From: Neoarius graeffei
Lineage: Eukaryota > Chordata > Actinopteri > Siluriformes > Ariidae
Assembly: GCF_027579695.1 (NCBI RefSeq)
Contig: NC_083579.1
Location: 67,466,871 to 67,530,870 of the forward strand
DNA: 64,000 nt
Reading direction: 5' to 3'
Shown: in pieces, positions 6,137-62,249 of the stretch
Numbering within the stretch: the first letter of the stretch is position 1
How the letters are laid out: the number at the start of each line of letters is the position of its first letter
Made by a program: the position numbers and the translations under genes
The notes under the pieces: model-generated
The model's input: the letters and a program-made list of their open reading frames with translations, nothing else
Databases searched by the model: none
Told to the model about the DNA's origin: nothing

Positions 6137-8990
6137 CCTCCTAGGACCTGGCGTCCATATGCGTGGACATCACATTTTGGGTTGTCTAGACCACAACACT
6201 AAATTTTGCTCTACAAGGGCCTGGTGTCCACTTATGAGGCCATTATACTGTTACCTAGTGGTGGCAGAAGAGTATAACACATTACAGGTTAGATTCAAGA
6301 TGGCTGACAACACACCCAGAAGTTCAGATGGCAACTCCCGATCCAAACATCGACCAGGTAAAAAATTTGATCAGATTTCATGGCTGATTCTTGTTCAGAT
6401 ATGTATAAAAGTGTTCAATGTTTGTTATGGAAGTCAAATTTTACAAAAGTTAGTAACTGTAACGATTTACTATGTCACTAAACATGATGCACACATATGT
6501 GGACTTACGGACTTAGTTTTGTTAGTTTGTTGACAATGTCCACAAATGTGGACAGAGGGAGTCATATTATGCTAGCAACAAAATGTGAGAATGAAATTGT
6601 ATTTTGGGATGATTTAGGCAAAAAAACAATAGTTTACTACAGTACAAGCAGATATAGCATGTTTTATAAATAAATCTACATAATTTTTAATTTGATTTTT
6701 CTCATGATGTATTTTTCCAGAACGTTATTCTCTGTCAAAAGCACTGGAGTTACTGGGGTTAATTGGTGGAGACAACTCAGAGGTGGAAGATTTGTCAGAC
6801 ATTGATGATCCCGTAGGGGATGCTGAATATCAACCCCCACGACAGGAGCCAAGCAGCAGTGAGGAGGACAGTAGTGGGTATGAGGACCCCATTCCACAGC
6901 CCTCTCAGCTTATCAGGGGACGTAAACGTCTCCGTGATGAATATGAAGGATATCGTTCAGATCGTGACATTGCCAGATCATGCACTCCTAGACGTCGCTC
7001 TCGGATACAGCAAGATGAGGCTGATGTCTCAATGTCCCTGAAGAAACAACACCAGGACCAAGCCATCAAGAACAGTCCAAGAAAGGGCATGGGATGTGAT
7101 GGAGGGCTTCTTCACTAACACCAAATCAAGCCCAGTTTGAGCATGAGGAGGAAACTGTGCAGGACAGAGAGAACTGGACCCTACTGGACTATATAGAACA
7201 GTATATTGATAAAGATTTGATGAAAATGATTGCAGATTGCTCTAATGCTACATCACTGGCTAGAAGTGGGAACCCACTCAACACATCCACTGATGAAATA
7301 TATCATTTTTTTGGTGCCTGTATTTTGATGTCTTGCGTACCGTATCCTGCAATCAGGATGTACTGGTCCAAAACCTTTAAACTCCCTGCCATCACTTACA
7401 AGTTCACACGTGACAGATTCTTCAGACTGAGGAGATCACTCAAAGTGCTCATTGATGATGATGTTCCAGAGGATCTGAGAGAGTGTGATAAATTCTGGAA
7501 GGTGAGGCCTTTTCTGAACTGCATTCTGAAAGGCTGCAAATCTCAGGCTCGACCAGAATGCGTTTCCATTGATGAGCAGACGATTCCATTCACAGGAGCT
7601 TGTCCGTGCCGACAATATCTGCCAATGAAACCAAGTCCAGTTGGCATGAAAAACTTTGTTTGTGCAACAGCAGATGGTATTGTGCTGGATTTTGACATTT
7701 ATCAAAGTGCAGATGCACTCCTTGAGCAGGTTGAAGAACCAGGGGATCTGGGTTTGGGAGGCTTGGTTATAGATCGTCTGTCTCAAACTCTGCATCCTAA
7801 TACAAATATCTACTGTGATCGGTTCTTCACATCCATCCAAGGTGTGGAACACATGATGAAGAAGCAGATGTATGTAACTGGTACAGTTATGAAGAATCAG
7901 GTCGCTGCAGCAGTACAGAAGCTACCAACTGACAAAAGAATGAAAAAGGATGGAAGAGGTACATCAGCACAAGTTACCACTGAGGATGGAAAGATTTGTG
8001 TGGTGAAGTGGTATGACAGTAAACCGGTATTGATGATGTCTGCTGTTCATGATTGAGAGCCAGAAGACTACTGCCAGAGATGGGACAAAAAACTAAAATG
8101 ATATGTGACCATCTCACGACCAAATATCATCCATGAATACAACTCCAAGATGGGTGGAGTTGACCTTGTCGATAGAATGATGAGTTACTATCGCATGAGT
8201 GGCCGTACAAAGAAATGGACGCTGCGGATGCTAATGCACTTTACAGATCTGGCTTTAGCCAACAGCTGGCTACTGTATTACAAAGACCTTACTGTATGTG
8301 GCACACCAAAGAAGAACATCATGCAGTTCCTTGAATTTCGTATGGAAGTGGCCATGACCTTCTTGGCTCAGCATGCCAATGACTTTTCAGAGCAGGAAGA
8401 CGACCCAGACGTGTCATTCCAAGGGAAAAAGCATCCAGTGAAGCCATTGCCCCATGTCTCATTCCGCAGGAGGGCTAATGCACATCTGCCAGAGATGGTA
8501 AACATGAAGAATGCAGCGCACTGCAGAGCCAAAGGTTGCTCAGGGAAAACTCGAGTGCAGTGTGTTACATGCAAGGTGTTCCTCTGCTTACAGGCAGATC
8601 GCAACTGTTACACAGCCTTTCACACATAGGTGTAAACATGTTCCCATAGGGAAAAGAAAGTTTGAAGTAGCAGTTTTGGAGTGTAAGTGAAATGTTTCAT
8701 GCAGTGTTAATGGACAATTGTTGTTTCTATTTTTGTTTTGCACTCAAGAAAAATGCTGCTGTGTTCAGGCACAAAATAAAGAGTTTTGCACATCATTACT
8801 TAATTGTGACTTCATTGTGTTTTATTGAAATCTAAAACGAAAGTCCTCATAGGTGGACATCATTTTTCTCAGAAACTACATCATGTAAAAAGATAATTCT
8901 TTGTTTTTACACTCATCAGGTGCCAATCAGCCCAAATAGAAAAGAGAAATTAAAAATACATGCCATACAAGAGTTCGGGTCTTAGGAGGT
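6137..8990 (+). mobile_element. piggyBac transposon, nearly complete
   Basis: TTAA duplications at 6133-6136 and 8991-8994 flank inverted ends (left CCTCCTAGGACC, right GGTCTTAGGAGG with one mismatch inside). Subterminal GTGGACAT words occur at both ends. The 2854-bp element holds a spliced transposase gene. TTAA targeting plus this transposase identifies the piggyBac superfamily. The right end lies 40 bp from the fos serum-response cluster. Confidence 0.95.
6300..8629 (+). pseudogene. piggyBac transposase (PGBD-type), broken
   Basis: Exon 1 (6300-6357) starts MADNTPRSSDGNSRSKHRP and ends at a GTAAAA donor. Exon 2 opens after TTTTTCCAG at 6720; the phase-1 join is in frame and leads into RYSLSKALELLGLIGG and an acidic N-terminal region. 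The DDE_Tnp_1_7 core follows: the first catalytic aspartate in SIDEQTIPFTG, the second in YCDRFFTS, the third in KMGGVDLVDRMM. A cysteine-rich C-terminus (HCRAKGCSGKTRVQCVTCKV) is the usual zinc-binding tail. Breaks seen: a frameshift near 7100 and in-frame TGA codons at 8054 and 8098. A fish piggyBac with a small first exon is unremarkable; the few breaks suggest a fairly young copy. Confidence 0.93.
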
Positions 8991-17200: not shown

Positions 17201-17271
17201 CAGGTGAATTCAAATACCTGGGGTCAGCCGTGCAGGAAAATGGGGGGGGGACTGCGATGGTGAGGTAAGAA

Positions 17272-17908
17272 TATGGGGTGCCAAGTGTCACCGGGCCCAT
17301 TTCGTCATCACAAAATGCATGTCGTTGGACGAAATGCATTTCGTCCATCACGAAATGCATTTCGTCCCACAAAATGCATTTCGTCTATCACAGAATGCAT
17401 TTTGTCATCACAAAATGCATTTCGTTGGACGAAATGCATTTTGTCCATCACGAAATGAATTTCGTCCATCACGAAATGCATTTCGTCTACAGAATGCAGT
17501 ATGGTAGATCACAGAATGCATTTCGTCCATCACAGAATGCATTTCGTCCGACGAAATGCATTTTGTGATGACGAAATGCATTCTGTGATGGACAAAATGA
17601 ATTTCGTCCATCACGAAATGCATTTCGTCCATCACAGAATGCATTTCGTCTGACGAAATGCGTTTTGTGATGATGAAATGCATTCTGTGATGGACGAAAT
17701 GCATTTCGTGATCTACCATACTGCATTCTGTAGACAAAATGCATTTCGTGATGGACAAAATGCATTTTGTCCATCACAGAATGCATTTTGTCATCACAAA
17801 ATGCATTTCGTCGGACGAAATGCATTCCGTGATGGACGAAATGCATTCCGTGATGGACGAAATGCATTTTGTCCATGAAATGGGCCCGGTGACACTTGGC
17901 ACCCCATA
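17272..17908. mobile_element. foldback element made of palindromic ATGCAT units
   Basis: Inverted ends TATGGGGTGCCAAGTGTCAC / GTGACACTTGGCACCCCATA are flanked by a 6-bp duplication TAAGAA (17266-17271 and 17909-17914). The interior is about two dozen imperfect repeats of GAAATGCATTTCGTC with spacers such as CATCACA and GGAC, arranged so that the two halves can pair. No coding sequence; the open frames in it come from the repeat itself. It sits inside a LINE. Confidence 0.9.
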
Positions 17909-18119
17909 TAAGAAAGACCTCAAATTGCAGGCAGGGTGGAGCGGTTAGAGAAGGATTTCGGGAGTCGTTTGTGATAGGAAAATCTCAGCAAAGGTAAGCT
18001 GTATAAGACAGTCGTGAGACCAGCTGTGATGTATGGATTGGAGACCGTACCCTTAACGAAGAAACAGGAGGTGGCAAAGTCGAGGAGGTTTGCGATGGGA
18101 GTGACGAGGTTGGAAGAAG

Positions 18120-26924: not shown

Positions 26925-27120
26925 TTAGGGGAAGCCATGGCCTAAAAGTTTTGGGACCAAAAGGTTGCTGGTTCGATTCACTGGACCAGCAAGAATCGCT
27001 GAAGTGCCCTTGAGCAAGGCACCTAACCCCCAACTGCTCCCCAGGCTGTACTGGGCATGCTGTACGTCACTCTGGATAAGAGCGTCTGCTAAATGCCATT
27101 AATGTAATGTAACGTAACTA
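26925..27120 (+). mobile_element. third SINE type (GATAAGAGCGTCTGC tail)
   Basis: A tRNA-like part with B box GGTTCGATTC is followed by GAAGTGCCCTTGAGCAAGGC and ends TCTGGATAAGAGCGTCTGCT and AAATGCCATTAATGTAATG. This ending is common in fish SINEs. A related piece lies at 47552-47745 on the minus strand. Confidence 0.85.
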
Positions 27121-27189: not shown

Positions 27190-28870
27190 CGCCAAGGAAA
27201 AACTCCCTCAGACGACATGAGGAAGAAACCTTGAGAGGAACCAGACTCAAAAGGGAACCCATCCTCATTTGGGCAACAACAGACAGCCTGACTATAATAT
27301 TAACAGTTTTAACAGGTATAACCCTCAACTGTCCTCATGGGGCCGTCCTTCACAGGAGCGGTGTGATAAAACTCCGACCAGACACAGGGCACCAGGATGG
27401 ATCAAGCAGGTCCGAGGGGCAGAAGAGGCCAGCATCTCAATCCCAGGATCAACATGTAACTCAGAGGGACAGATTGGGGGGGAAGAGAGAGAGAATGAAA
27501 ACACAGGTTGTTAGGTATGCCCTAAAAATGACAAGTATTAAATCTGTGTGGTAGGCTCGCAGAGACGAGAGTCTTTACATTAGGCATAACACACAACAAT
27601 GGCATGTTAATATGGTAAAAAATATCATGACCTGCTCTGGCTGGATGCTTGATTGGGTGATGGGAGCACACTCCTCAGCAATGATGAGATGCAGATGGGA
27701 CCCTTAGGGCTGGCCAAGACAATTCAGTTACATTTCACCGGGTCTGGGACATGCGACAGAATGTCTGACGGCCGATTCCCTGCAGGCTACGATAGCCAGT
27801 CGAGGTCTCCACCCTCTCCACCAAAAGATTTCCTGTTGACTCCATGTAACTCAGAGGGACAGATTTGGGGTGGGGGGGAGGGAAAGAAAACACAGGTTGT
27901 TAGGTATGCCCAATGTCACCTGAATAAGTAGGAGCAGTATACATATTGCACCGAGTACAAGCAGGGACTCCGGCAACTAACTATGACAGCATAACTAAAA
28001 GGAGAGAGCCAGAAGGTAATACAGGCATGAGGGAGCCCCGGGACATAAAGCAGCCAGCCACTACACCGTCAACAAACTCGAGTGAGCAAGCGAGTGGGGA
28101 CTGACAGCATCCATACATCCCAGTTTACCAAAACACTCTATGTCTGAGGACCCTCCAGATCTACACCTTTACCTCATAAACACCATTAACAAAAGGCTTG
28201 ACTAAACAGATATGTTTTCAGCCTAGACTTAAATGCTGAGACTGTGTCTGATTCCCGAACACTACTTGGAAGGCTGTTCCATAACTGTGGGCCTTTGTAA
28301 GAAAAGGCTCTGCCCCCTGATGTAGCCTTCGCTATACGAGGTACCAGCAGATAGCCTGCACCTTTTGATCTAAGTAGGCGTGGCGGGTCATAGAGGAGCA
28401 GAAGTTCACTCAGGTACTGTGGTGCGAGACCATTTAGTGCTTTAAAGGTCAATAGTAGTATTTTATAATCAATACGAAATTTGATTGGGAGCCAATGCGG
28501 TGTGGATAAGACAGGCGTGATGTGGTCATATTTTCTAGTTCTAGTAAGGACTCTTGCTGCGGCATTTTGAACTAACTGGAGCTTGTTTATGCACTTATTG
28601 GAACATCCAGACAGTAAGGCATTACAATAATCCAACCTGGAGGTAACGAAAGCATGGACTAGTTTTTCTGCATCATGCAATGACATTAAATTTCTTATCT
28701 TTGCAATATTTCTGAGATGAAAGAAAGCTATCCGGGTGATATCAATGTGAGTTTCGAATGAAAGACTGGGGTCAATAATCACTCCGAGGTCTTTTACTGC
28801 TGCACGTGAAGAAACAGAAAGGCCATCCAGAGTCACTCTGTAATCAGAAAACTTACTTCTAGCTGGTGTC
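27190..28870 (-). mobile_element. L2/CR1-group LINE, 3' portion
   Basis: The minus-strand frame from 28870 to 28186 encodes the C-terminal reverse-transcriptase region: VKDLGVIIDPSLSFETHI, AFVTSRLDYCNALLSG, LQLVQNAAARVLTRTRKYDH, LHWLPIKFRIDYKILLLTFK-like PHWLPIK, GPQLWNSLPSSVRES, ending FKSRLKTYLF. The 3' untranslated part reaches about 27190 and includes GGAACCAGACTCAAAAGGGA and a duplicated CATGTAACTCAGAGGGACAG block. 5' truncated. The terminal frame is uninterrupted over about 230 codons, so the copy is fairly young. Confidence 0.85.
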
Positions 28871-29261
28871 TTCATCCACGTTGTTTTCCCGGCGCTTGGT
28901 GATGCCATGACAACCGGGAAAAGGAAGTACATTTTCACGCATGCGCATATTTCATTTCCGCATTATTACTATCGTATAGCACGGTCGCAAAAACTACCGC
29001 GTGAACGCAAGTAGGGCTGCACCGGTGCTAACATGCTTCTCTCTAGTAAGCAGGTTTGTGACGTGTGAACGCTCCACAAAATTTACACCGGTGTAAGATA
29101 TATCGCAACAAAATACATCGGTGCAGCATCGATGCAAATATGTGCCGTGTGAACACCCCTTTAGAGTAGCCAGTTTTCTTAATCTGCATTTCTTTGGACT
29201 GTGGGAAGAAACCCATGTTCTAAACAAATGTGAATGCAGATAAAAATAAGTGCATTTTATT
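28871..29261. other. unassigned, MITE-like
   Basis: Words such as GTGTGAACGC and GTGTGAACACCCC repeat here, and CACCGGTG occurs as a palindrome. It resembles a small hAT-type MITE but I could not define the ends. Confidence 0.3.
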
Positions 29262-29745: not shown

Positions 29746-30471
29746 TGAAACTCCCATCAAACCATCAGCAATTATCATGTCTTACTCGTACCATATTCAG
29801 TTTTCGCCAAAACACAATATCTGCCGTTGATTTACACACTGCATGCCTTTTGTTCCAAAACGCAACAAGCGCCATCACCAATTTTTCTCAAAACCAGACA
29901 TCCATTTGGCCAATCAGAGGCCACCATTGGCATGAAGTCTTCTAAGATGGCTGCGCCCATGAAGTAGGAAATCGCTTCATCACTTCTCGCATTTATTGGA
30001 CAATTTTATGCTGAATTATGAATAATTTTGATAAAATAATCTAAAAAAAATCTCTAAAATAATGTGTCGTGAAAACACGGTTAAATGCATTTTAAATAGA
30101 AAGGGATATGTAGCATTTTGGGGGGGAAAATGCAATGGCGTGGATATGTAGTGACTTGACAAAAAAATAATTACTTGTTCAGTTAAAAGCTGTTAATTAT
30201 TTCTGGATTTCATTTTTGAAGTTTATTATCATTAAAGGACATGGGACATGGATTTTTTTCTGGGTATAATTATGTATAAAGGACATAAGAAATGCTATCT
30301 AAATCACTGCAGGGCGTCAAAAATGTGAAAATCATCACATTATTCAACTTTTTTATACATCAGCGTAAAACAATGATTCGTTAATTAGCTAGGTGGTCAC
30401 GTGACCCGTGACATCACAAAAACTTTCCAAGGAGCCAGCGCTTGGGAATCTAATGTAAACGGGTTACCGAA

Positions 30472-30664
30472 ATGGACACCATCGACAGTGACATTCCCGA
30501 TGTTTCACAGAGATGTGAAGTTAGACCCTATCAATTCGAACCGATAGCTGGAAATTCACATGAACATGGATCTTGTCTTTACTCTGACGGGTCAGATGAT
30601 TCTGAGAGTGAGAGTTCATTCAATCCCCATGAAACTGAAAGCGGTCGGCTGGATAACACTTCCT
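30472..30664 (+). CDS. acidic first exon, P2X7-C-terminus-like
   Basis: ATG at 30472 encodes MDTIDSDIPDVSQRCEVRPY, then QFEPIA and an acidic serine-rich run (SDGSDDSESESS), ending RLDNTS before a TG|GTAAGT donor at 30665. The motif RPYQFEP with a following R-N-x-x-W resembles the start of the P2X7-C-terminal-like domain found in many fish transposon-linked genes; the cysteine part would lie in a missing downstream exon. It is on the opposite strand to the THAP exon. Assignment is inference. Confidence 0.4.
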
Positions 30665-31011
30665 GGTAAGTTAAAAACAATTCTGCTCAAAGGCTAATGA
30701 TCTGTTGAAAGAAGTATTATTTTTGTATCATACACTGAAAGTTCATCATAGATCTAGCTAAAGTCCGTTGCAAGCTAGTTTTTTTTTTTGCTGATATTTT
30801 TCGAGATTGATTGATTGAGATACAATGCTTCCAGAGTCCGAGATGAAAACATTCAAAATGGCGAAACGCCATCACACAGCCAACAACACTACGCCATTTG
30901 TCGAAAGAGATGAAAATTAAGAAAAGTTAAACAAACTTACCAACATAACATTTATTTAAATGTCCATTAATGTTACAGGATTTTTTGACTGTCTCTACAG
31001 TTGTAGGAATG

Positions 31012-31311
31012 TTAGGCCCTGTATATTATGGCGCTATCACTGCCTCCATGAACCCGGCTATACGGCCTCTTAAATTTGGCTTGGCAATTAATATCGCTCA
31101 GTACCTGAGTATTAATGTTGAAAGAATCCTCAGTGAAATGGTCCGAACACAGTTTGTGGGAAACAGTAGGTGCAAAGTTTTTTCTACGGCAGTAGTGAGC
31201 CCACACTTTCCTCAGCTTCGGGTCCTTGGGGAATGCAAAAAAACTTACTCCAGGGCATTTCCCATTGAAATTATTGCAACCATAAGCAGCACAATACACC
31301 ATGATGTTCAA
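31012..31311 (-). CDS. THAP zinc-finger exon of the Kolobok-like element
   Basis: The 99-residue frame begins MNIMVYCAAYGC and carries the full C2CH signature: Cys7, Cys12, Cys55, His58, with Pro28, Trp37 and Phe59 (KLCSDHF) in their usual places. THAP domains bind DNA and in Kolobok and P elements form the N-terminus of the transposase. The frame closes 40 residues after the finger, without the AVPTIF box, so this is a fragment. The domain itself looks intact. Confidence 0.8.
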   Translation of the reverse strand: MNIMVYCAAYGCNNFNGKCPGVSFFAFPKDPKLRKVWAHYCRRKNFAPTVSHKLCSDHFTEDSFNINTQVLSDINCQAKFKRPYSRVHGGSDSAIIYRA

Positions 31312-31524
31312 TGTACGTTAAAGACTATAAAAACAATTTTCTTGTCATTCACTTCTCCATTCATCTACCCGCTTGTGCTGTGCCCGAAAGTTTTTGTGAC
31401 GTATGATCACGTGACAGCGGCTCTTCCGGTTGTAAAATATGCATATCGGAGCTCGAGCAGAAATGCCATATAATCATCACGAATATAACGATTTTGCTGA
31501 ATTTAATAGATGATTTTGTATTTG

Positions 31525-31659
31525 GCCCTGTGATGACCTGGCGACTTGTCCAGGGTGTACCCCGCCTTTCGCCCGTAGTCAGCTGGGATAGGCTCCAGCT
31601 TGCCTGCGACCCTGTAGAAGGATAAAGCGGCTAGAGATAATGAGATGAGAATGAGATGA
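31525..31659 (+). mobile_element. SINE, 5' truncated at GCCCTGTG
   Basis: Starts exactly at GCCCTGTGATGACCTGG, with a 13-bp duplication GATTTTGTATTTG at 31512-31524 and 31660-31672. GATGA tail. The copy at 39886 starts at the same base. Confidence 0.95.
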
Positions 31660-31851
31660 GATTTTGTATTTGTTGATGCAATTAATTCATATTTTAATGG
31701 AAAGAAACTGATATAGCGTGCATTTATGTTTCATGTCCCATGTCCTTTAAGGAGTTAGTCAATAAAGTTTAAAACAGGATACAGTGGTTTTCCTTTTCTC
31801 ACTTCCCGTAATCAGAAAAAGTGATTTTTCTCAAAACAGTGGAATTGGATA

Positions 31852-42237: not shown

Positions 42238-43498
42238 ATGATGCCCGGACAGATCCCTGACCCTTCGGTGACGGCAGGCTCTTTACCCAGCCTGGGCCCG
42301 CTGGCTGGGATCTCTGCCACGACACTGACAGACCAGCTGAAATACGCCGACCTGTGCAGCCTCGGAGCCATGCTGTCTCCGCTGCACCTCTTGGGCAAGC
42401 TGAGCAAGCACCATCTTCCTATTAAAGCAGAGGTGAGGCATGAAATTAGTTTGTTTACCAAGTGATCTTGGTGTTAGCGCAGCAAATTTAGCTTGAAAAC
42501 ATGGTACACCCGAATGTTGGAACCTAGTAAGTACTAAATTGTATAAAAAAAATTAAGTTTCGCAGGGCAAATTTATTCACAACTCTTCCATGAAATGGAA
42601 GTTTAGTTAATTATTATTTAGGTGCAGAATATCGCTTTGAATTTACTCGGAATATTTGATCTATTATTGTTCTTATGAATATCACTACTGCAAAGAGAAT
42701 ATGTCCAAGATCTAGAAATGCAGAAGTTTATGAATTGCATTTTTATATCTACAAAGAACAATGAGTCCATCTAGTGGGCTGTCAGTAATTACAGTACATG
42801 AAGTAATTACAGTACATGAAGTACGAGACCGAAGACAGTGTTGTCCTTTGTCATCTGATTAAAGGCCTAGTCAGGATATCAGGCACATGAAACGATCTAT
42901 TCATCAATCTTTATTAACTTTGCATCATCGTGATTGTTCATTGTACCGCCCCAACTGCATTTAACCAGAAAGCAAAGACACATTTAAGAACATTTCACTT
43001 GGTTTTGTGACTCTGTAAATACCCGTTTGACCTAATGAAGTAATGTAGACTTTGGTACCTCATTTAGAAAGATGAGGAGGAGGAGAGGAGGAAGAGGAGG
43101 CGAGAAAAAAACAAAGTGGCAGCAGCACGATGTCGAAACAAAAAGAAAGAGCGAACGGAGTATCTACAAAGGGTGGGTTTTCTTTTTTTTTTTTAAGTTT
43201 CAATGATTACACTACAGCACCCTGCATGTCAACAACTAGACAGAATACTGCCTGTAACATCCACACTACAAAATCAATTATAATGATAATCATTCTGAAA
43301 CTGTGGCCTCAGGAATCCGAGAGGTTGGAGATGATGAACTCTGAGCTCAAAGCGCAAATCGAGGAGCTGAAGCACGAGCGCCAGCAGCTTATCCTCATGC
43401 TCAACCGTCACCGGCCGACATGCATCGTGAGGACAGACAGTGTGAAAACCCCCGAGAGCGAGGCGAACCCCCTCTTGGAGCAGCTAGAGGCCAAATGA
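42238..43498 (+). CDS. jdp2: Jun dimerization protein 2 (bZIP), three coding exons
   Basis: Coding exons 42238-42432, 43068-43172 and 43313-43498; GT-AG introns, phase 0. The product is 161 residues (human 163). The start MMPGQIPDPSVTAGSLPSLG matches human JDP2; the acceptor CTAG at 42211-42214 lies 23 bp before it, so the leader is spliced. Basic region RRKRRREKNKVAAARCRNKK, then zipper leucines 98, 105, 112, 119, 126 and His133. The C-terminus is RPTCIVRTDSVKTPESEANP. JDP2 dimerises with Jun or ATF2 in the nucleus and represses AP-1 and CRE sites, partly through histone deacetylases. It sits 30 kb downstream of fos on the same strand, as in mammals. Confidence 0.97.
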
Positions 43499-44340
43499 GG
43501 AAAAGTGCAGAGACTCAGAGTGGTGCTTTTCCACACTTACTGTTTACAGGTTAGCTTCCATACAGCTAGCTAGAAGCACTTAGCTCTAAACTCTTGGACA
43601 TTTTAAGGTTGAACGAGTAAAGCACTCCAACCCGTATGCTTGGAGTGTTTGAGCCTTTGTGGAACCCACGCATACATGTCCCAATCAGATTGGGCAACGT
43701 GCTGACAGTTACAAGTTTGTAGTACCTTTTTTTTTTTTTTTTTTCCCCCCCCGTTTGTGGTCATTCTGTGCCTAATGGTTTTACCTTAATCCAACGAGGC
43801 AGTTTGTAACAGATAGCAAAAACAAAATGCACTTCCTCAAGGTATCATGTAAGATCTGTGTTTTCGGCAATGCAACTGGATGATTTGTGCTATGTTCAAG
43901 TCATGATATGCCCTCATGAAATTGCTTTTACTGTTCTTTCTTTCTTTCTTTCTTTCCTCCTTCCTTTCTTTCTTTCTTTCAAGACGCAGGCGTCATGTAT
44001 GCACATATACAGTATATGGACTGTTTACATCTTGTTCTTATAGTTACCGACAATTTATATATATATATAAATATATTATTTTTTTTCTGATTTTTATACT
44101 TCATGTACATTACATTATATGGACTGTTATCACTAGATGTGATACATTTTATATTACCGCTATATAACAGATAGTTATATAACCCCTTTTTTTCTGTGAC
44201 TTACTTATTATGTTTAATGGCTGTGAAGAAATGCAAACAATATACACTATGTATTTGGGAAGTATATTCTACAGTCCTTTAATTATTAAATCAGTTCTTC
44301 TTCAACTGTTTTAATACCTTCTGTGCATTTTAAATTGTTC
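43499..44340 (+). other. jdp2 3' untranslated region and flank
   Basis: T-run at 43728-43744, a TTTC/TTCC microsatellite at 43937-43980, an (AT)n patch near 44056. No other gene seen. The exact polyadenylation site is not evident. Confidence 0.5.
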
Positions 44341-44346
44341 AATCAT

Positions 44347-44354
44347 GCCCCCCC

Positions 44355-44385
<31 letters not shown>

Positions 44386-44386
44386 A
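44347..44386. repeat. C-run followed by A-run
   Basis: About 28 C then about 11 A; may be unreliable in length. Confidence 0.9.
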
Positions 44387-44399
44387 CAATCGTATTCTG

Positions 44400-45830
44400 A
44401 TATTTTTATCGATAAACCAAAAAGCTATACCAGGCAATGGCTACTTGTACCCTTCACAAGAAACATTGAGTTCATAAGTTAGCTAATCCAGAATTTTGCT
44501 ACCTGAATTCTGTCTGGGCAGCGTACAGTAAATATGATCACATAACACCTACTCTTAAAGGAACAGTCCACCGTACTTCCATAATGAAATATGCTCTTAT
44601 CTGAATTGAGACGAGCTGCTCCGTACCTCTCCGAGCTTTGCGCGACCTCCCAGTCAGTCAGACGCAGTCAGACGCGCTGTCACACCTGTTAGCAATGTAG
44701 CTAGGCTCAGCATGGCCAATGGTATTTTTTGGGGCTGTAGTTAGATGCGACCAAACTCTTCCGCGTTTTTCCTGTTTACATAGGTTTATATGACCAGTGA
44801 TATGAAACAAGTTCAGTTACACAAATTGAAACGTAGCGATTTTCTATGCTACGGAAAGTCCGCACTATAATGACAGGCGTACTAACACCTTCTGCGTGCT
44901 TCGGCAGCGCATTGATATCTGAGCTCCGTATCAATGCGCTGCCGAAGCGCGCAGAAGGTGTTAGTACGCCTGTCATTATAGTGCGGACTTTCCGTAGCAT
45001 AGAAAATCGCTACGTTTCAATTTGTGTAACTGAACTTGTTTCATATCACTGGTCATATAAACCTATGTAAACAGGAAAAACGCGGAAGAGTTTGGTCGCA
45101 TCTAACTACAGCCCCAAAAAATACCATTGGCCATACTGAGCCTAGCTACATTGCTAACAGGAGTGACAGCGCGTCTGACTGCGTCTGACTGACTGGGAGG
45201 TCGCGCAAAGCTCGGATAGGTACGGAGCAGCCCGTCTCAATTCAGATAAGAGCATATTTAATTATGGAAGTACGGTGGACTGTTCCTTTAAGGAACTGAA
45301 GCTTTTGCCTGTGTCTGATTTGTTCACCATAAGAGATGCCATACTTGTGTATAAATGCATGAATAATCTTGCCACTAATTATCTTACTAGATTGTTCAGG
45401 AAACACTCCAGTATACATCAACATAATGCTAGGAACAGGAACAATCTGAATGTCCCCAAGTGTCGTCCTGCCAAGGCACAGAACTCTTTTCTTTATCGAA
45501 GGGTCTCTGGCTCGATCTCACTCCCAGAAGCAATTTCCAAGTCTCCTATATCCGTATCCATTTTTAAATGTAACTTAAAGTTGCATTATTTTGAGAGGTG
45601 GTTGTACACCTTGTTCTGTTCAGTTTGATAACATTTGTAAATATTACTCTTATTAGGTTTTGATAATTCCTTTCTATACATTTCCTTAGAATATTTTCAT
45701 TTATTTTATATTATTTGTAATTACAATTATTTGTTTTTACAGCACTTGTAAATTGGGTATGAAGACCCCATTTTGGGAACCTAATAAAGAGTATTGCATT
45801 GTCTTGTATTGTATTGTAAGTAGCTATGGA
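44400..45830 (+). mobile_element. LINE 3' fragment (CR1/jockey-like), interrupted by a foldback
   Basis: The coding sequence DHITPTL (44537-44557 region) continues after the insertion as KELKLLPVSDLFTIRDAILV, YKCMNNLATNYLTRLF, ending NLKLHYFERWL. The shape (HITPxLKELxWLPV) is the reverse-transcriptase C-terminal region of CR1/jockey-type LINEs. The 3' end is a TATTG/TTGTA repeat near 45800-45828. Confidence 0.75.
44559..45287. mobile_element. 729-bp near-perfect palindrome, TTAA foldback MITE
   Basis: TTAA at 44555-44558 and 45288-45291. Ends AGGAACAGTCCACCGTACTT and complement. Two arms of about 360 bp are almost identical in inverted orientation, centred near 44923 at GAGCTC, with practically no loop. 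Twin open frames (minus from 45000, plus from 44846) are the same sequence read from each arm. The AGG-ending tips and TTAA suggest a Kolobok/piggyBac-type origin. Confidence 0.92.
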
Positions 45831-61423: not shown

Positions 61424-61576
61424 TCCGCATGGATTGACCCACTGATATGAGAATGTCAGAGTTCTGGGCACGCTTTATTCCCAGGTTCGTTTGTTACTGA
61501 CATTTTGCTGAGGTGGAAACTTGAACAGAAGTCAGATCTACCAGGCGGAACATGTACAATCGCATTAACTTTCAAG

Positions 61577-62110
61577 ATGCCACAGGAAGAAACTAGTGTC
61601 TCCAAAAGGGAGCGCGCAGAAGACCAAGGCGAAGGCACGGACGCGCGTACTGAGTGCGCTCAGGAGTCTCCAACCCGCCTGTACAGGAGAAGATGGCTGA
61701 TCGTTTTGCTCTTCAGCTCATATTCTCTGTGCAATTCGTATCAGTGGATCCAGTATGGAATCATCAGCAACATCTTCATGGATTTTTACAGCGTGAGCGC
61801 GTTCGCTGTAGACTGGATGTCCATGGTTTACATGCTCACTTACATACCACTGGTCTTCCCAGTAACGTGGCTTTTGGACAGGAAAGGGCTGCGAGTCGTT
61901 GCGCTCGTAGCCACCGCTGTGAACTGCGCGGGCGCATGGGTTAAAGTCGTGAGCGTCAAGCCGCACCTGTTCTGGGTGAGTGTGTTCGGGCAGGTCGTGT
62001 GCTCCATCGCGCAGGTGTTCATCCTCGGCATGCCGTCTCACATCGCCGCCGTGTGGTTCGGCCCGGAAGAAGTGTCCACCGCCTGCTCCATCGGCGTCTT
62101 CGGCAACCAG
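61577..62110 (+). CDS. flvcr2: FLVCR2 transporter, first coding exon only
   Basis: 178 residues end at FGNQ with a GTGAGT donor at 62111, the same place as in the human gene; later exons lie beyond 64000. A polar N-terminal tail (about 40 residues) is followed by [82 protein letters not shown], and [20 protein letters not shown] with [19 protein letters not shown]: about five membrane helices of a major facilitator protein. These closely match FLVCR2, a plasma-membrane choline transporter of brain endothelium earlier linked to heme and calcium. The Met at 61577 was chosen because it starts the hydrophilic tail; an in-frame Met at 61505 is an alternative. Confidence 0.93.
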
Positions 62111-62249
62111 GTGAGTCCATTGCACCTGGTGCGCAATCAAGAGCGCCGTGAAGTTGGACCTTTGGAAAATAAGGTCCATTATTGGACCTTTAGAGGCACG
62201 GCAGCTTCTCACTGGGGCAGTTCCCTCTAAGCCACTTATTTGTACCCAT

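Follow-up and report, generated by a model that had tools for sequence, protein, structure and literature searches.

A high-copy family of near-loop-free palindromic TTAA elements in Neoarius graeffei, in all likelihood Kolobok-type MITEs, and the loss of single arms from its copies

The signature of the T2-MITE is a terminal AGGRR together with TTAA, and teleost short inverted-repeat elements (Izsvak et al. 1999) are cited along with T2 for the same TTAA/AGGRR signature (PMC6004289; here and below, the cited papers are represented by excerpts). Ends of the form 5'-RR/YY-3' are described as setting Kolobok apart from piggyBac (PMC9587614). For an inverted repeat in the goldentouch intron of the Midas cichlid, formation of a cruciform or hairpin has been discussed (PMC8758764), and a review relates palindromes in general terms to secondary structure, double-strand breaks and deletions (PMC7999016). 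The element described here is one of the many copies of what is very probably a palindromic MITE family, apparently without coding capacity, that carries TTAA duplications and AGGAA tips and is mobilised in trans by a Kolobok-type transposase. The kind of family is ordinary, namely a TTAA/AGGRR MITE; what is unusual is a full-length, near-loop-free palindrome at thousands of sites.

The palindrome and its setting in the window

Within the window, the whole 64,000-nucleotide stretch of DNA analysed here, an earlier note made from the sequence had placed a palindrome with hardly any loop at 44559-45287. Both the position and the architecture proved exact: the element measures 729 bp with TTAA on either side, and an inverted-repeat search returned two arms of 364 nt each, 98% complementary and separated by 11 nt, the 364-nt calls taking in the TTAA and one further flanking base. 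Self-alignment of the arms gave 6 ungapped mismatches in 359 pairs, and the inverted self-match across the whole element is 97.8%. The features of the locus are as follows:

44470..44558, plus strand: LINE frame left of the insertion, open, with LINE-protein alignment from about 44530
44555..44558, plus strand: left TTAA target-site duplication
44559..44922, plus strand: left palindrome arm, tip AGGAACAGTCC
44655..44674, plus strand: 10-nt tandem duplication in the left arm, two units of CAGTCAGACG, one unit missing in some copies
44918..44928, no strand: imperfect 11-nt centre, an asymmetric motif
44924..45287, minus strand: right palindrome arm
45288..45291, plus strand: right TTAA target-site duplication
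45292..45628, plus strand: LINE frame right of the insertion, with LINE-protein alignment to about 45598

Folded as RNA, the element strand reaches -703.8 kcal/mol, compared with a mean of -206.7 for 20 shuffles, none of which folded as well (z=-60); if the palindrome is transcribed, the product would be a 360-bp hairpin RNA. The longest ORF wholly within the element encodes 77 aa, and no further matches to the element were found within the 64-kb window at E <=1. Taking out the element and one TTAA restores the LINE codons D-H-I-T-P-T-L-K-E-L-K-L in frame, as had been read before, and a LINE protein read from 28189-28962 on the minus strand spans the rejoined junction unbroken (tblastn E=8e-14, 30% identity); a stop lies immediately upstream of the open stretch at 44470-44558.

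The window is crowded with other transposons, and comparison of the window with itself gave numerous overlapping inverted self-matches at 17271-17909. The single Rfam match in the window, UnaL2 at 27049-27102, lies away from the palindrome, and no tRNA was found in the window. An exon at 61451-62227 resembles the solved FLVCR2 (E=1.5e-70), and two ORFs at about 11.6 kb and 43.3 kb resemble FOS and JDP2; Pfam gave no support for such an identity for either ORF, and the search of solved structures gave none for the JDP2-like ORF. The palindrome begins about 1.06 kb (43495-44559) past the stop of the ORF resembling the last exon of JDP2, with a poly-A-like ATTAAA at 44285 before it and an AATAAA at 45783 after it.

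Copies across the genome and the loss of single arms

Further copies, which the earlier note had proposed to look for, were found in the window's own genome (2.34 Gb, 38 contigs). A one-arm query gave 868 candidates. In the 40 scored, identity was 96% or higher in every arm match of nearly full length (query position 1 to 359 or further). Matches to the 26-nt end, allowing up to 3 mismatches, number 12,079 (6070 + 6009), against none for the reversed control. If every copy had two ends, this would correspond to some 6,000 of them; how many independent insertions these represent is uncertain, since one-ended copies push it up and duplicated segments push it down; 140 fetched loci form 120 insertion clusters, 20 of the 140 being redundant, so that the end count includes segmental duplicates. 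Of the loci L001-L100, 81 are two-ended, and all but one of these (80 of 81) are flanked by TTAA on either side; the far end likewise adjoins TTAA in every one of the 34 two-ended copies of a second sample (L109-L148). The copies fall into three length classes of about 729, 675 and about 855 bp, every one of them palindromic. The 855-bp subfamily (L042, L043, L051, L070, L071) has a longer palindromic centre and the family tips, and the 675-bp subfamily (L055, L058, L060) a diverged interior and the family tips. Viral-contig, genome-contig, plasmid and phage collections gave 0 matches each to the element, and a literature text search with six short strings of it returned nothing. Literature searches on palindrome loss, or on a palindromic Kolobok/TTAA family already described, brought up related work, none of it matchable to the element sequence; Repbase and Dfam, which lay outside the search, may catalogue the family.

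A sample of 100 copies, all selected for one perfect 26-nt end, divides into 59 full palindromes free of gaps, 22 copies with both ends but a gap inside, and 19 one-ended copies. The corresponding numbers are 34/13/13 for a sample from contig C1 (n=60), which comprises 33 loci picked for both ends perfect and 27 of the 32 single-perfect-end places among the matches listed, and 25/9/6 for a sample (n=40) made of the first 40 new places of 152 matches defined by three flanking bases and a perfect end. As the C1 loci were chosen by end perfection, the figure of 19 in 100 should not be read as a rate.

Single-arm relatives, for which the earlier note had proposed a search, thus exist, and at least three of them arose by deletion after insertion and are not ancestors of the palindrome. 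In one duplicated segment, six two-ended copies have flanks that are 98.5-100% alike on both sides (L056, L057, L059, L061 and L062 gapless, L099 with an internal gap), and two further copies, L092 and L098, have the same left flank and no right end. The left flanks, up to 200 bp, of all eight loci are 99-100% alike, and stretches of up to 4.9 kb in L098 and L092 align to L061 extended by its right flank. Aligned in this way, L098 passes from position 378 of the element to 2.58 kb beyond it, with 2.93 kb gone, and L092 passes from about position 432 to 1.24 kb beyond it, with 1.54 kb gone. In another segment, the sequence of L091 picks up 60 bp outside the right end of L064. Arm loss in L091, L092 and L098 followed insertion, and for the other 16 one-ended copies we infer deletion as well. 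The loss of arm plus flank in two copies of one duplicated segment suggests breakage of palindromes at their centre. The segment carrying this identical insertion is scattered across several Mb of the largest contig (C1), these eight loci being examples.

The positions of the breaks bear on how the arms were lost. Relative to the centre, the 19 one-ended copies break at -140, -6, +6, +6, +10, +13, +19, +22, +23, +38, +41, +67, +70, +83, +120, +140, +146, +223 and +226 nt, the one truncation 140 nt before the centre being L144. Of these 19 breaks, 18 fall at -10 nt or later (p=6e-5, binomial against uniform) and 10 are no more than 50 nt from the centre (p=1.4e-4). When each duplicated segment contributes a single event, 16 events remain, of which 15 fall at -10 or later (p=4e-4). 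The number within 50 nt is then 8 to 10, varying with the event kept (p from 1e-3 to 2e-5); one count kept the centre-nearest event for each of two duplicated segments, and the other choices gave 8 or 9 of 16 (p=1e-3 and 2e-4). L089 is also gapped across the centre, and L086 and L093 belong to other length classes; leaving out these three truncated copies gives 15/16 and 9/16 (p=4e-4 and 2e-4). The significant figures depend on pooling the 40-copy sample with the 60-copy C1 sample: the cleanest 40-copy sample taken by itself has 6 truncated copies, 5 of them broken at or past the centre, which is non-significant (p=0.12). These statistics cover 19 truncations in the palindromic family alone.

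Internal gaps were analysed in the same manner. The 12 gaps of the 729 class have 24 endpoints, 5 of them no more than 6 nt from the centre (p=8e-5); 7 of the 12 gaps have no endpoint that close, among them the gap of L099, which arose after insertion. From this test, 11 gapped two-ended copies of the 855 class were excluded because their gaps may be subfamily differences. Five one-ended copies of a first, similarity-ranked set (L013, L017, L027, L032, L039) break at 372-392; they and L037, whose arm is incomplete, stand outside the counts. No second arm was found within a further 3 kb of L079, L084, L087 and L098. The cluster L072/L114/L123, whose partial matches are 87-91% and reversed, was unused, and L088 has just one flank in common with its cluster.

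An alternative source of one-armed copies is abnormal integration, whether one-ended or through a hairpin, in place of deletion. Many junctions do lie just past the centre, as expected from a hairpin tip that is opened at integration. Against this, L092 and L098 are missing not only the right end but also about 1.24 and 2.58 kb of the right flank that the six two-ended copies retain, and L091 resumes 60 bp beyond the right end of L064. These observations answer the case for three copies of the 19, and we consider abnormal integration unlikely as the general explanation; deletion after insertion is the reading that we retain.

Ends, target sites and the putative transposase

Three hallmarks of the T2-MITE/Kolobok group were found in the element, namely a TTAA duplication, AGGAA..TTCCT ends (AGGRR, RR/YY) and a high copy number, and from these sequence features we infer a Kolobok transposase as the mover. 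Kolobok membership is read from the ends and TTAA alone, since no autonomous element with matching ends, which would encode a THAP/DDE/H2CH transposase, was found: a search of the own genome for a partner with the identical 10-nt tip and a different interior gave 4 matches against 3 for the control, and a second partner pattern, a weak one in that some of its letters admitted the family's own base, gave 0 matches. Two other TTAA-flanked elements of the window are relevant to this assignment:

6137-8989: piggyBac element, TTAA ends, CCTCCTA tips
30236-31746: Kolobok-like element, TTAA at both ends, tip AGGACATGGGACAT

The first of these brings in a piggyBac transposase as mover, for instance that of the 6137-8989 element itself, which would make the family a piggyBac-type MITE. 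That element lies about 36 kb away from the palindrome and shows DDE_Tnp_1_7 homology in two open stretches in one frame, 7100-8053 (E=2e-41) and 8102-8626 (E=2e-8). The palindrome also has the TTAA target-site duplication of the piggyBac superfamily, and C. elegans PALTTAA2 has been named alongside piggyBac (PMC1431705). The ends tell a different story, with palindrome tips of AGGAACAGTCC versus CCTCCTA at both ends of the window's piggyBac. The termini of piggyBac are of the type 5'-CC..GG-3', whereas the element ends in AGG..CCT. Its RR/YY ends are a mark given for Kolobok and not for piggyBac (PMC9587614). A piggyBac-type origin is therefore improbable, and a Kolobok-type transposase remains the candidate mover.

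The second element, at 30236-31746, had been likened to the palindrome in the earlier note on account of its tips. The resemblance holds for the TTAA and the AGG ends, but just 5 of the first 14 bases are alike, AGGA plus one later base; tips in common beyond these were rejected by this comparison. The tip given for full-length Xenopus Kolobok is AGGACATGTCAACCCC, which is closer to the tip of the 30236 element than to that of the palindrome (PMC6004289). On its minus strand, the 30236-31746 element encodes a THAP domain (E=9e-14) within a short intact THAP-only frame (ORF 31012-31317). A first look at the own genome gave 17,503 candidates for the THAP stretch; of the 150 scored, 149 are stop-free, and most of the copies listed keep an identical 101-aa frame. 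This THAP-only family is perhaps non-autonomous with a retained DNA-binding domain, or simply young.

Arm divergence, palindrome breakage and comparison with known systems

Both arms of 40 independent 729-class copies, the window copy among them, were analysed over 345 columns. Mean arm distances are 2.4% within a copy, 2.9% between copies and 1.6% to the consensus. The two arms of the window copy are 1.7% apart, close to that family mean distance to consensus, which supports the recent insertion proposed in the earlier note in a relative sense, without years. The recent formation of the palindrome, proposed there as well, found no support, since the family, with its thousands of ends, inherits the palindromic form. 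A recent de novo palindrome was rejected in view of the palindromic copies at many insertions. As the palindrome is a family trait, arm differences date the insertion and not the formation of the palindrome, and the window element is one young copy, its age being relative. For gapless palindromes the mean arm divergence is 2.4% in the 729 class (n=48), 2.8% in the 675 class (n=3) and 4.0% in the 855 class (n=8).

Reading divergence in this way would fail if gene conversion kept the arms alike, as arm identity would then be uninformative on age. Sequence has indeed passed between arms at some time: several common variants sit on either side of the oriented centre, and 303G and 70G are commoner in both arms than in one (5 versus 3 and 8 versus 6 copies). 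The 10-nt tandem unit is single in one arm in 10 copies and in both arms in 6, and in oriented copies with one single-unit arm this arm lies to one side of the centre in 6 and to the other in 4; the asymmetric centre motif has a single orientation in 38 of 40 copies scored (18 versus 20). Since these older common variants occur in both arms or on either side of the centre, exchange between arms or copies probably happened during the amplification phase. Private mutations behave otherwise, with 95 in one arm against 3 in both, or 62 against 0 outside CG/TG/CA contexts, and a copy's own other arm is strictly the nearest for just 6 of 80 arms. As private mutations are mostly one-armed, fixed copies show no detectable arm homogenisation, and arm divergence therefore reflects the time since insertion or since the arms of the source copy last matched. 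Ongoing arm-to-arm gene conversion in fixed copies was rejected on these one-armed mutations, and we regard it as a very remote prospect; independent divergence of the arms is the reading adopted here.

Finally, a false fold-back palindrome made by sequencing or assembly, a kind of artefact that missed adapters and fold-back reads are known to produce and against which the earlier note had warned for assemblies, is scarcely conceivable and was rejected, because the identical palindrome occurs at many unrelated sites (140 loci, forming 120 insertion clusters), 80 of 81 paired loci have TTAA on either side, arm and centre variants are common to separate insertions, the arms bear private substitutions, and an artefact would also mirror the flanks and would not stop at TTAA.

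Taken as a sequence of events, an older element would first have become palindromic when one of its ends was copied by fold-back, after which a Kolobok-type transposase recognising the identical ends most likely moved it in trans. As its copies show, the already palindromic element inserted at TTAA with duplication and spread, and its two arms then decayed independently. Where a cruciform is extruded, it or a hairpin tip would presumably be cut and resected, with the loss of one arm. Long near-perfect palindromes are expected to be unstable, and the centre-break or tip-cutting model describes their breakage; despite this expected instability the family reached thousands of sites. Whether its copies naturally record, across the genome, how palindromes break in the germline, with damaged copies that have lost all or part of one arm, frequently from the centre or just past it as tip-cutting predicts, is in our judgement evenly balanced. 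If so, the arm divergence of each copy would be its own clock. Copies start as nearly one palindrome and their arms then diverge independently, which arranges them by age; how fast, in which direction and at which breakpoints an animal germline loses palindromes could be measured on such a series without a transgene. In practical terms, further copies should be sought before a lone near-loop-free palindrome of an animal assembly is declared recent or an artefact.

Among described systems, the Kolobok-type T2-MITE of Xenopus is alike in its TTAA, terminal AGGRR, non-autonomous nature, high copy number and signs of recent activity (PMC6004289). It differs, in a comparison by description only, in having terminal inverted repeats where the present family has full-length palindromes, as far as the excerpt of that study describes (PMC6004289). 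Teleost short inverted-repeat elements are alike in being inverted repeats of fish that are cited beside T2 (PMC6004289). C. elegans PALTTAA, from a nematode, is palindromic and TTAA-associated by name alone, and PALTTAA2 is paired with piggyBac in the text cited (PMC1431705). The 8.2-kb piggyBac-derived inverted repeat in the goldentouch intron of the Midas cichlid is likewise from a fish, near-identical and transposon-derived; unlike the apparently non-coding 729-bp family, it is described as a single insertion with a 4.1-kb stem and transposase similarity (PMC8758764).
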